In this document: positions 1,096 through 21,637 of the stretch, in pieces
How positions within the stretch are numbered: position 1 is the stretch's first letter
Layout: every line of letters starts with the position of its first letter
Origin: Akkermansiaceae bacterium
GTDB lineage: Bacteria > Verrucomicrobiota > Verrucomicrobiia > Verrucomicrobiales > Akkermansiaceae
DNA length: 32,028 bases
Reading direction: 5' to 3'
Assembly (NCBI GenBank): GCA_903827375.1
Contig: CAIKHZ010000164.1
Location: 1 to 32,028 of the forward strand
Notes under the pieces: model-generated
Database searches by the model: none
The model's input: only the letters and a program-made list of their open reading frames with translations
What the model was told of the DNA's origin: nothing
Program-made: the position numbers and the translations under genes

Positions 1096-3918
1096 TCAGG
1101 CGATGCTGGCGGGTTTTGGCTCTTCTTTGAGCTCGTCTTTGGGCTCGCATCCACCAATGTCTTTTGAATTGGCGTGGCTGCCGACAGCCGCCGTTTCCCC
1201 AATCGCGACGGTCCCCTCAGCGACGACGGTCCCTTCAGCGACCACGGTCCCTTTATCGACGATCACCTCCTCAGCGACGACGGCCTCCTCATCGACGATC
1301 GCCTCCTCAGCGACGACGGCCTCCTCAGCGACGACGGCCTCCTCAGCGACGATCACCTCCTCAGGGACGACGGCCTCCTCATCGGTGGAGTCCTCCTCGT
1401 CGATAAAGGAATCCTCATCGGTGGAGTCCTCCTCGTCGATAAAGGAATCCTCATCCGCGAGTTCCATGGTGTTGGCCTCTTCAGTGATTGGGGGTTCCTC
1501 ACCGGCGACGATCTCAGCGGCATCTGCGGCATCTGCGGCATCGGCGGCATCTGCGGCATCGGCGGCATCGGCGGCATCGGCGGCATCGGCGGCATCAGCG
1601 GCATCAGCGGCATCGGCGGCATCTGCGGCATCTGCGGCATCTGCGGCATCAGCGGCATCGGCGGCATCAGCGGCATCAGCGGCATCAGCGGCATCGGCGG
1701 CATCGGCGGCATCGGCGGCAGCACTCTGAGCAGCGGCGAGTTGGGCGGCGGCGGATGTCACACGGCTATAGCTGCGGTATTTGCGGCCGAGAGCAATGAT
1801 TTGAGCCAGCACGTCGGCGGTTTGGCGGGTCATACCGGCCAATGTCTGGAGGATCGTGACGTTATCCTCGAGGCGTTGCTGCAAAGCCTTCAAGTGCCCG
1901 GCATCTTTGTCCTTGGCGGCCTGCAGGTTAGCCTGCAATTGTTTTCCATACATCTCGATATAATGGGTCATCCGCGACTCGGAAACGCGCAGCGCTTCAC
2001 TCGGAAAACGCCGCGCCAGCTCGCTGAGGACTCGCTCCTCGAGTGCCTGCCGACCTTCCTCACCAAGGCGTTTTTCCTTCGTGAGCACGGGCACCTCGCG
2101 GTCCAATGCATCGGGCGCACCAAAAAGTTTGCGGCGCACAGCTGCCAAACTGCGGATAGCCAGCCAGTCCCACACTGACTTGCGCACCTTCAATTGTTCC
2201 GGCTCAATCTGAAACAGGCCACCAGGCTGCGTTGGTGCCGCGTCGCCCAAGGTCGCCCGGGCCGAAGTCACCACAGGCTCCAGCAACTCGATGAGACCCA
2301 GCGCCGGCGAGCGCAGGTGGTCGTCAATTCGGATTCCGCCAAGCGAGTTGGCGACCAGCGCACGCTCCTTAAGGTGGCTTTCGCTGCTCACCCGTTTGCC
2401 GCAGGCATCGAGCAAATCCGCCCAGTCGCGTTGCAATGCAGCCACACTTTGGTCGGAAGCAAACCAGTTTCCGAGCCGTCTGAGCGCCCTCTGCCTCGCC
2501 TCTGCAGCCGCAGCAGCAGCCACCTCCGCGACGTGCTTCTGCAACTCCCCGCGTATGTGGCTGAAGGCCGCCTTGACATCAAGCGCGGCGAGTTTTTCGA
2601 TAGCTGCGAGCCGTGCTTGGGTATCACTGAGCTCACTGGCGAGCATCTGTTGGCGGATCTCAAGGGCTGCGGTGGACTCTGGCGAACAATATTCACGGAT
2701 CTCGCTACCAAGATTGGTGCCCATCAGCAAGGCGTCCCCCATGAACTCCTGCAGGTAGTCACTGCTGTTGAGGTAATCCGTCAAATCCTTTAAAAACAAG
2801 CTAAACGAGGCCTCAGGGTGTTCCGCCCAACCCGTTGGCATCACGCTCGTCTTCCCTTCGAGCCCGCCACCACTCGCTGCCGTATCATTCGCCTCCGTCG
2901 CCACTGCCTCCGTCGCCTGGCCTGCTGCAAGCGGTTCAATAACCGACTGTGGCTCAGTCGTCCGGCGCATCGCTGCCGAAGCCGAGTTGAGCAGATCGAT
3001 CGGATAGATCTTGAGCCGACCCGCCTCCTGGGCGCGGCGCAGCGGCGCGCTCATCACCAGCGATTCAAACGCACGAATCACTTTGCCGGGCGACTCGCTC
3101 TCCAAGCTCGGCCGCAACGAGCCGTCCGGATCTAGGTCGCGCTTGTTGCTATCAATGTTGACCACGATGAAAATCCGGCTGAACAGATCCAACAAATCGT
3201 TAAATTCCTCGAACACCTGCTCCAAGAACAGATTGTCGGTTTTGACGACAAACACGGCGCAAGCCGCGCTGTTGCGGAACTCGCGGGTCATGAGATCGTA
3301 GCCGAACTTCATCCGTGTGTAGAGGCCCGGGGTGTCCACCAGCACCGTGAGGGAGTCTTTCAAATTGCGGGCAGGCATTGCCACATCCACGCGGCGGATC
3401 GCCTCGGGATAGTGCACGCCGGGGTCGAAGGTATCGCCTTGGTCCTCGACTTCGCGCAAGCGCCCAGCCAATGTTTGGTGGCTTTCCTGGATCAGGGCCT
3501 GCAGGGCGGTATTGTCAGCGAGGTGGACTTTTTCACCGTCATAGCGGGATGCCACATAACTGCACTCGTCACCATGTTTCACGTGCACCAGGCACGGATA
3601 AGCGGGCAGCGACGTCACCTCGCTGACGTAGGCTGCGCTGATGGCGTTCATGAGGGTGGACTTGCCGCTTTTAAGAGGGCCAAAGATAATAAGATAGGCC
3701 TGCTGCTCCTCCACCTTGTTGAGCAAACTCTCCAAACGATGGTGCACGTCAGAAAACCCCGCAATCGGCCGCTGTAACACGTCGGCGTCACCCTTGCCTT
3801 GGCAGGTCGCTCGGGCTCCTTGCAGGGCCGCAGCAAACGGCTTGATGATGCTGGCATAGGCCTGGCAGAATTCAAAAATATCGGTTTTGATAGATGTGAT
3901 TGGAGCTGGGGTGTTCAT
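1096..3918 (-). CDS. Dynamin-family GTPase with Ala-Asp-Ala and acidic repeat tail
   Basis: A 940-residue protein with a dynamin-like GTPase domain in its first ~330 residues. The P-loop is GPLKSGKST (about 80-88), G3 is DTPGL (195-199), and a G4-like NIDSNKRD lies at 254-261 after a hydrophobic strand. A long helical, coiled-coil-like middle follows (about 390-720), as in bacterial dynamins that act on membranes. The C-terminus is unusual: residues about 734-800 are 22 uninterrupted Ala-Asp-Ala units, followed to about 925 by a Glu/Asp/Val-rich region with repeats of the EEAVVA type and a duplicated DSFIDEEDSTDE. No membrane helix is obvious. It is divergent from pgsA, so both are probably driven from the 207-bp gap. 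The start ATG at 3918 lacks a Shine-Dalgarno sequence. Its biological role cannot be told from sequence. Confidence 0.85.
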   Translation of the reverse strand: MNTPAPITSIKTDIFEFCQAYASIIKPFAAALQGARATCQGKGDADVLQRPIAGFSDVHHRLESLLNKVEEQQAYLIIFGPLKSGKSTLMNAISAAYVSEVTSLPAYPCLVHVKHGDECSYVASRYDGEKVHLADNTALQALIQESHQTLAGRLREVEDQGDTFDPGVHYPEAIRRVDVAMPARNLKDSLTVLVDTPGLYTRMKFGYDLMTREFRNSAACAVFVVKTDNLFLEQVFEEFNDLLDLFSRIFIVVNIDSNKRDLDPDGSLRPSLESESPGKVIRAFESLVMSAPLRRAQEAGRLKIYPIDLLNSASAAMRRTTEPQSVIEPLAAGQATEAVATEANDTAASGGGLEGKTSVMPTGWAEHPEASFSLFLKDLTDYLNSSDYLQEFMGDALLMGTNLGSEIREYCSPESTAALEIRQQMLASELSDTQARLAAIEKLAALDVKAAFSHIRGELQKHVAEVAAAAAAEARQRALRRLGNWFASDQSVAALQRDWADLLDACGKRVSSESHLKERALVANSLGGIRIDDHLRSPALGLIELLEPVVTSARATLGDAAPTQPGGLFQIEPEQLKVRKSVWDWLAIRSLAAVRRKLFGAPDALDREVPVLTKEKRLGEEGRQALEERVLSELARRFPSEALRVSESRMTHYIEMYGKQLQANLQAAKDKDAGHLKALQQRLEDNVTILQTLAGMTRQTADVLAQIIALGRKYRSYSRVTSAAAQLAAAQSAAADAADAADAADAADAADAADAADAADAADAADAADAADAADAADAADAADAADAADAADAADAADAAEIVAGEEPPITEEANTMELADEDSFIDEEDSTDEDSFIDEEDSTDEEAVVPEEVIVAEEAVVAEEAVVAEEAIVDEEAVVAEEVIVDKGTVVAEGTVVAEGTVAIGETAAVGSHANSKDIGGCEPKDELKEEPKPASIA
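1381..1452. repeat. Perfect 36-bp tandem duplication inside the GTPase gene
   Basis: The 36-bp block at 1381-1416 is repeated exactly at 1417-1452. It encodes the acidic 12-mer DSFIDEEDSTDE twice. Perfect identity, including third codon positions, points to a recent duplication. Confidence 0.9.
1519..1716. repeat. Tandem array of 22 nine-base units in the GTPase gene
   Basis: Twenty-two contiguous copies of GGCATCNGC (plus strand) encode Ala-Asp-Ala on the minus strand. The only variable base is N (T, G or A, never C), a synonymous third position of one Ala codon. All other positions, including the Asp wobble base, are invariant. Confidence 0.95.
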
Positions 3919-4125: not shown

Positions 4126-4713
4126 ATGACCTTTGCAAGCAAGATCACCTTGTCGCGGCTGTTGCTGGTGCCGGTGTTTGCCGTGCTGGCTATATATTAC
4201 GGACACAGCGTGGCGGACAAAGTCCCGATTGAGTGGCTGCGTTGGTGCGCACTGGTGGTCTTTGTAACGGCTGCGGCCAGTGACGGGCTGGACGGCTGGA
4301 TCGCGCGCCGCTTCAACCAGCGCTCGAGATTTGGTGCTATCATCGACCCCATTGCCGACAAAACACTGCTGCTCACCGCCATCATCACCCTCACACTCGT
4401 GAATTGGGGGCCGGACCATTGGCATCTGCCTCTGTGGTTCACCGCACTGGTGATCGTGCGAGATTGCATCATTTTGGGCGGCATCAACGTGCTCCATTTC
4501 ACCGGCCACCAAGTCCATATCGCCCCACAATGGAGCGGCAAGGTGTGCACCGTCACACAAATGGTGGCCATCGGCTGGATCATGCTCAAGGTGGTGCCGT
4601 TCTCCCCATTTTATCCTTGTATCATCGCCGCCGCCTGCACCGTATGGTCCGGCGTGGATTATATCCGCGATGGGCTGCGCATCCTCCATGAAAGTGGCAA
4701 GGCTAATGTCTAA
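4126..4713 (+). CDS. pgsA: CDP-alcohol phosphatidyltransferase, PgsA-like (phosphatidylglycerophosphate synthase)
   Basis: A 195-residue membrane protein with the complete CDP-alcohol phosphotransferase signature: D53, D56-G57, A60-R61, G70, D74 and D78 with the canonical spacing. Several hydrophobic segments flank it (about 8-27, 38-52, 79-95, 100-120 and 140-175). Enzymes of this family displace CMP from CDP-diacylglycerol with an alcohol in the cytoplasmic membrane. Length and the KITLSRLLLVPVF start resemble PgsA, which makes phosphatidylglycerol phosphate from glycerol-3-phosphate, but the exact acceptor cannot be read from sequence. The ATG at 4126 is the first in frame that gives the normal family N-terminus. 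The next gene starts 26 bases after its stop on the same strand, so co-transcription is likely. Confidence 0.85.
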   Translation: MTFASKITLSRLLLVPVFAVLAIYYGHSVADKVPIEWLRWCALVVFVTAAASDGLDGWIARRFNQRSRFGAIIDPIADKTLLLTAIITLTLVNWGPDHWHLPLWFTALVIVRDCIILGGINVLHFTGHQVHIAPQWSGKVCTVTQMVAIGWIMLKVVPFSPFYPCIIAAACTVWSGVDYIRDGLRILHESGKANV

Positions 4714-21190: not shown

Positions 21191-21637
21191 ATGGACATCT
21201 ACGTGGGCAATCTGCCCTACACTGCTACTGAAGGGGACGTGACAGGTCTCTTTGCCGCTTTTGGACCGGTCGAACGGGTCAAAATCATCACCGACCGTGA
21301 AACCGGGCAATCCAAGGGATTTGCTTTTGTGACTCTCGGCGACCAAACCCAGTTGAATGCGGCCATCGAAGCCCTCAACGATTACGATTACAATGGACGT
21401 CCACTCCGCGTGAACGCCTCCGAACCTAAGGAAGCCCGGCCCGGTGGCGGTGGCGGCTACGGCGGCGGCGGCGGTGGCGGCGGCGGCGGCTACAGAGGTG
21501 GCAGTGGCGGCGGTGGTGGCGGCGGCGGCTACAAAGGTGGCGGCGGCGGCGGCGGCTACAAAGGTGGCGGCGGTGGCGGCGGCGGCGGCTATAAAGGCGG
21601 CGGCGGCGGTGGCCACAAAGGTGGCGGCGGCTGGTAA
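21191..21637 (+). CDS. Glycine-rich RNA-binding protein with one RRM domain
   Basis: A 148-residue protein. The RRM domain covers residues 1-78, with RNP2 IYVGNLPY (3-10) and RNP1 KGFAFVTL (42-49). Residues about 85-148 are almost entirely Gly with Tyr and Lys in GGGGYKGG-type repeats. Bacterial proteins of this build (well known in cyanobacteria) bind RNA and are often cold-induced. The Gly repeats are encoded by a GGC/GGT-rich tract that can slip during replication. A strong terminator follows 32 bases after the stop. The long upstream region with an orphan terminator may be regulatory, which would suit a cold-responsive gene; this is inference. Confidence 0.93.
   Translation: MDIYVGNLPYTATEGDVTGLFAAFGPVERVKIITDRETGQSKGFAFVTLGDQTQLNAAIEALNDYDYNGRPLRVNASEPKEARPGGGGGYGGGGGGGGGGYRGGSGGGGGGGGYKGGGGGGGYKGGGGGGGGGYKGGGGGGHKGGGGW

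Follow-up and report, generated by a model that had tools for sequence, protein, structure and literature searches.

An exact Ala-Asp-Ala array in the acidic tail of a BDLP/mitofusin-like dynamin from an Akkermansiaceae bacterium, with signs of recent tandem duplication

The dynamin gene and its fold

The window, the whole 32,028 bp stretch of Akkermansiaceae DNA that we analysed, carries a gene for a dynamin-like GTPase whose C-terminal tail contains tandem repeats (Table 1). An earlier note on this DNA had given the interval 1096-2150, which is confined to the C-terminal portion of the protein; the gene is 1096-3918.

Table 1. Features of the dynamin gene and its surroundings, with further dynamin genes in relatives and elsewhere in the window genome. 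Positions refer to the window unless another locus is named.
Feature	Position	Strand	Basis or context
Dynamin-like GTPase gene	1096..3918	minus	ORF, 940 aa, ATG start, TGA stop; Pfam Dynamin_N
GTPase (Dynamin_N) domain, residues 77-254, with GPLKSGKST and DTPG	3157..3690	minus	Pfam match; 27-row alignment
Hypervariable acidic linker after the GTPase domain, residues 323-366	2821..2952	minus	pLDDT <50; dN/dS; length and charge across A1
Conserved basic/aromatic block KVRKSVWDWLAIRSLAAVRRKLFG, residues 577-600	2119..2190	minus	Conservation; helix positions in model
22 x (Ala-Asp-Ala), units GCNGATGCC, residues 735-800	1519..1716	minus	TRF and codon analysis
Perfect 36-bp tandem repeat, 2.2 copies (DEDSFIDEEDST)	1376..1455	minus	TRF
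Imperfect 18-bp tandem repeat, 9.8 copies, EEAVVA-like	1206..1381	minus	TRF
Extreme C-terminus, residues 890-940, alignable with L007	1099..1251	minus	dN/dS 0.26 over 46 codons
CDP-diacylglycerol--glycerol-3-phosphate 3-phosphatidyltransferase (pgsA)	4126..4713	plus	TIGR00560, 116.4 bits (cut-off 109.1); divergent, upstream of dynamin gene
Second dynamin beside relative	L010 4506-5939	plus	Downstream, same strand as relative
Second dynamin beside relative	L011 7235-8632	plus	Downstream, same strand as relative
Second dynamin beside relative	L024 7175-8143	plus	Downstream, same strand as relative
Second dynamin beside relative	L019 813-2525	minus	Upstream, divergent
Other dynamin-like protein, 571 aa, long hydrophobic stretch near C-terminus	L037 (contig C187) 1351-3066		Dynamin_N search

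Pfam PF00350 (Dynamin_N) matches the protein at 41.1 bits against a cut-off of 27. In a family alignment of 27 rows (A1) the residues of GPLKSGKST (G1) and DTPG (G3) are invariant (27/27). The canonical dynamin G4 motif is (T/N)KxD; at this position the window protein reads VNID (253-256), with the Lys replaced, and V253, N254 and D256 are likewise invariant in 27/27 rows. A1 includes L007, a close relative; the entries not put in it were L031 (a 280-residue fragment), L001 (the window), L002 (the same record as L007) and L005/L006 (a split match). NCBIfam gave only sub-threshold Era matches to the dynamin, and a search of the PDB by sequence found no match at E <= 0.1.

The AlphaFold2 model made with the family alignment is mostly confident over the body, with helices at 10-70 and 368-717, and has pLDDT <50 for residues 323-366 and nearly all of 721-940. 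Foldseek matched BDLP best (2j69, E 2.2e-14, and 2j68), followed by IniA, SynDLP and mitofusins. VIA-align placed mitofusins and Fzo1 first (mitofusin-1: Z 20.6, 364 aligned, rmsd 9.1), with BDLP at rank 15 (Z 17.1, 463 aligned, rmsd 26.7). Its alignments with mitofusins and BDLP span residues 9-717, a helical neck/trunk around the GTPase domain, and because the whole-chain rmsd is large, the domain angles differ from theirs. The Pfam match, the model and both structure searches agree with the original assignment as a dynamin-like GTPase, and the protein is a BDLP/mitofusin-like dynamin.

The GTPase domain with helical neck/trunk is common to the window protein, BDLP1 of Nostoc punctiforme (2j68/2j69) and the mitofusins. 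Unlike them, the window protein has an acidic linker, a 220-aa tail and no strongly hydrophobic segment; no transmembrane-like segment was found in it, the best 19-residue Kyte-Doolittle mean being 1.19. SynDLP of Synechocystis (7zw6) is likewise a bacterial DLP (VIA-align Z 14.7, 568 aligned, rmsd 15.6), and Campylobacter Cj-DLP1/2 and other paired bacterial dynamins also have the bacterial DLP fold of the window protein.

Within the basic/aromatic block 577-600, D584, R595 and G600 are invariant in 27/27 rows of A1, and the model gives it short helices (582-586 and 591-599) flanked by longer ones. The block sits between helices in the C-terminal half, about where we take the BDLP paddle to lie, and from its conservation and position it is a candidate membrane tip equivalent to that paddle. 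The BDLP paddle contacts lipid, and binding is abolished in paddle mutants (PMC2862293, in extract). Electrostatics contribute strongly to the binding of SynDLP to PG and other anionic lipids, and the extract of the same report mentions no acidic repeat tail (PMC10104851), whereas the window protein has a repeat tail.

The PADLOC model of LeoA matched only partially (19.4 bits, model positions 106-171 of 559), and the LeoA structure 4aur was listed by Foldseek and absent among the 50 VIA-align matches listed. A match to Plasmodium HRP (Pfam PF05403) was rejected at 19.1 bits against a gathering score of 45.8; its best stretch, 728-801, is the Ala-Asp-Ala stretch, and since Ala/Asp composition is common to both, the sub-threshold match is compositional. 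Bacterial dynamin-like GTPases and repeat growth in low-complexity tails are both kinds already known. Among the matches listed by a literature search of titles and abstract openings, there was no paper on the family of the window dynamin, nor any bacterial dynamin with Ala-Asp-Ala repeats.

Duplication history of the array

The earlier note had described 22 exact Ala-Asp-Ala units with one variable synonymous base, and this holds in full: every unit (22/22) reads GCN-GAT-GCC, with variation confined to the wobble position of the first Ala codon. This base is C in 10 units, T in 6 and A in 6 (G, A and T on the plus strand), in the order CCCTTTCTAAACTTCCCCACAA along the coding strand. TRF calls the array with period 9, 22.7 copies and 94% matches. 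Under independent codon choice, computed from the codon usage of the window gene outside the array, 22 GAT codons and 22 second-Ala GCC codons have a probability of 2.6e-18, and the units are therefore copies of one another. Moreover, neighbouring units carry the same variant at 11 of 21 junctions, where 6.8 would be expected (P 0.042), which hints weakly at local duplication. Two mutations of the first Ala codon, one from C to T and one from C to A, together with copying, suffice to explain the single variable silent site, and thus the exactness of the peptide need not mean selection. With seven possible silent changes per unit, we estimate that two such changes would fall at one shared position in about 2 of 5 cases. 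This part of the earlier reading is therefore weaker; in addition, L007, with a core 95% identical, interrupts the run with Glu units.

L007 is Akkermansiaceae bacterium Ki1-2-2m_bin-203, and the 95% refers to the body of its protein. Between the same flanks as in the window, its tail holds ADAADAEAADADAADAADAADAADAADAEAAE, a tract that is shorter and interrupted, followed by another acidic repeat, DEEDTS. In the next relatives, L012 (85% identical) and L025 (81%), the tail is acidic but lacks the array. A tree of the 27 body sequences resolves these as (((window, L007), L012), L025), with support of 100/100, 100/98 and 100/100, so that the array passes along it from 22 units in the window, through short and interrupted in L007, to absent in L012 and L025. 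On the simplest reading of these sequences, the array would have arisen after the split from L012 and then grown in the window lineage. The recent spread of a few unit variants that had been proposed is thereby borne out as tandem duplication. In L012 and L025 it is the post-GTPase linker that is expanded instead (126 aa against 44 in the window), with a composition rich in Ala, Glu, Asp, Val and Pro.

We also considered whether the unit number, or the tail itself, is wrong through faulty assembly or binning. The window genome is fragmented (370 contigs, 96% complete), and the 198-bp array exceeds common short reads. However, the longest exact repeat within the array and its 60-bp flanks is 35 bp, from which reads of at least 100 bases should order the units uniquely; the unit number could be wrong if longer perfect duplications collapsed in assembly. 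The frame is open and the C-terminus homologous with that of L007. Moreover, the independent contig of L007 has a shorter array at the same place, which argues against an artefact, and we regard such an error as very unlikely.

The second, acidic repeat zone noted after the array is confirmed in the 36-bp and 18-bp repeats (Table 1), and the repeat units of the tail (9, 18 and 36 bp) are all multiples of three and in frame. Judged from these comparisons, the array is real and its origin well explained by recent tandem duplication within an acidic, fast-evolving tail.

When the window's genome was searched for a second array, two weak matches, 37 and 46 bp long, were all that appeared besides the array itself. 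Across the genus, array DNA has matches at E <= 0.001 in 41 of 73 genomes (own included), mostly short. One genus relative carries several long stretches resembling Ala-Asp repeat DNA on a single contig (G035:C263:23057-25371), probably a large repetitive gene. Hairpin-driven expansion was rejected, both array strands folding less well than their dinucleotide-shuffled versions (z +6.0 and +2.2).

Constraint, charge and shape of the tail

Outside two inserts the body measures 663-669 aa in all 27 rows of A1, while the linker ranges from 4 to 126 aa and the C-terminal tail from 11 to 220 aa. The window tail (721-940) is 220 aa long with a net charge of about -63. For the comparison of charge we used 26 rows, omitting L007 as a near-copy. 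In 26/26 rows the tail has a more negative net charge per residue than the body, although the rows share descent and are not 26 independent tests; for the linker this holds in 25/26, the exception being L003. The description of the tail as acidic in the earlier note is supported by this measure. In L017 the tail exceeds the body in acidity by very little (-0.03 against -0.02 per residue). Three entries were found after A1, namely L051, L052 (the same record as L031) and L054; L051 was inspected separately with L005, and these two, from one genus, are exceptions whose short tails are not plainly acidic. Tail acidity is thus usual in the family, not universal.

Two other observations concern the tails of relatives. 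The tails of L015, L016, L017 and L018 share a short conserved aromatic motif, AFSLW..PY.G, within otherwise free acidic sequence, and those of L015, L016 and L018 have a second copy (GAFTVWTAE or GAFTIWTAE); from sequence this is a candidate short binding motif. The linker of L003 contains GTIW stretches similar to it. Moreover, L054 3-545, a weakly related gene fragment (28% identity), seems to offer a parallel, its tail carrying a 9-bp repeat of Ile-Glu-Glu type.

In the comparison of the window protein with L007, the GTPase region (1-320) has a dN/dS of 0.05 and the helical region (366-720) one of 0.13. The ratio is 0.74 in the linker (321-365; Fisher P 0.56) and 0.63 in tail residues 801-830 (P 0.50), so that linker and upper tail are indistinguishable from 1 by the Fisher test. 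For residues 890-940 it is 0.26 (P 0.023), which together with the ending PKPASIA common to both proteins implies that translation runs through the array. These data weakly indicate some constraint on the extreme C-terminus.

A tail lying beyond the folded body might simply tolerate the products of slippage, in which case the array would have no role. The ratios in the linker and upper tail fit such an account, as do the expansion of another unit, DEEDTS, in the sister L007 and the commonness of Ala/Asp-coding stretches in the genus (41/73 genomes). However, acidic tails and linkers recur in distant relatives, and the ratio at the C-terminus past the repeats speaks, if weakly, for constraint. 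We consider this account possible, though on balance unlikely.

We think it probable that the acidic tail of this BDLP/mitofusin-fold dynamin, grown by recent in-frame duplication, acts through its charge and length. The family keeps a body of about 667 residues, and two inserts, the linker and the tail, are free in sequence and length and nearly always acidic. In the window lineage, recent in-frame tandem duplication of 9, 18 and 36 bp units lengthened a tail that was already acidic, and comparison shows the (ADA)22 array to be its cleanest product. The body would do the membrane work, with block 577-600 presumably touching lipid. The tail may space molecules or compete with anionic lipid for basic surfaces, and may thereby tune assembly or membrane binding, the Ala-Asp-Ala units contributing charge and length and not a specific binding code. 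The C-terminal tail of FtsZ is a comparison of working only, being a disordered tail on a polymerising GTPase with a fold unrelated to that of dynamin. According to extracts of the respective reports, the disordered tail of FtsZ is autoinhibitory in B. subtilis (PMC12747378), and disordered domains can favour convex membranes by entropy (PMC6175956).

The earlier note had suggested that the tail could be a flexible acidic spacer or a brush that binds membrane or a partner, the brush being a conjectural role, and had proposed a prediction of disorder. The prediction divides: with the family alignment, block-mean pLDDT over the array is 35-42, which fits flexibility, but when residues 640-940 are folded alone without an alignment, 718-805 form one helix with array block means of 83-96. 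The array might accordingly continue the stalk's final helix as a charged alpha-helix about 10 nm long that sets a distance or acts as a lever, perhaps only when the pH is low or when cations or a basic partner are present. On the Pace-Scholtz scale its mean helix cost is 0.23, whereas no 66-residue segment of the body falls below 0.27. However, a model of an Ala-rich repeat made from one sequence carries little weight, the run with the alignment gives no such confidence, and with Asp only and no Lys or Arg there can be no i,i+4 salt bridges. Moreover, proline occurs within the first 30 tail residues in 22 of the 27 rows, and a helix or rod is therefore no family trait. A rod of this kind seems improbable to us.

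As an example of growth by tandem duplication in a bacterial protein tail, the locus is clean and polarised by a tree, beside a strongly conserved folded body. It also draws attention to a branch of dynamins in which two hypervariable inserts are mostly acidic, with members in Verrucomicrobiota and some further phyla. Should the tail tune membrane binding, evolution would have a simple means of adjusting a membrane-remodelling GTPase through the number of repeats; if it has no such role, this would be a tidy case of near-neutral tail growth.

Distribution and neighbouring genes

Genes of the window type are sparse, occurring in 4 of 73 genus genomes, namely the window genome and those of L007 (G028), L012 (G087) and L025 (G075), and in 9 of 386 order genomes including its own, with a weak match in G142 and a match in fragments in G273. 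The family is found here mostly in Verrucomicrobiota, with some members in other phyla. The tree places the four genus carriers with rows of Opitutales/Opitutia (L008, L029 and L009), apart from L003 and L004 of the same order, L004 being a long branch, and from L023, which is named Verrucomicrobiales. This placement may reflect transfer.

The divergent neighbour pgsA (phosphatidylglycerophosphate synthase) adjoins the dynamin gene in 4/4 genus carriers. In 8 genus genomes that lack the dynamin gene, the pgsA locus showed neither a DLP nor a BamB-like gene within about 1.5 kb on each side, and the loci of other relatives gave no pgsA match at E <= 1e-8. The adjacency is weak evidence of function. 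It does enter a more specific version of a role for the tail, in which duplication would set the reach and charge of a length-tunable regulator that competes with anionic membrane for the basic block, array length setting the threshold of membrane binding, possibly with a pH-switched Ala-Asp helix. The anionic membrane is tied here to pgsA, which makes the phosphatidylglycerol precursor. We hold this version to be quite unlikely, and keep to the general reading of a tail acting through charge and length.

Clustering of flanking frames at 28 loci led us to reject a family-wide conserved operon: neighbours are common only within close groups, with one more widely shared. This is a second dynamin gene, present at 4 of the 28 relative loci (L010, L011, L019 and L024); it was tested with Pfam in L010, L011 and L019, and that of L024 was identified by 93% identity to that of L011. 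Bacterial DLPs usually occur as side-by-side pairs, according to an extract of PMC6104087, and the family of the window gene can occur in such pairs like other bacterial dynamins. The partner-type dynamin had no match in the window genome or the three other genus carriers and therefore does not explain the window gene; across the genus it gave weak matches only, in 7 of 73 genomes. No DLP partner lies next door to the window gene, and a genome-wide Dynamin_N search gave one other gene, on contig C187. This gene is matched in 67 of the 73 genus genomes and, being genus-wide, is no special companion of the window gene.

Lastly, the window holds another repeat-grown tail: an RRM RNA-binding protein at 21191-21637 (plus strand) has a C-terminal Gly-rich tandem repeat at 21446-21613.
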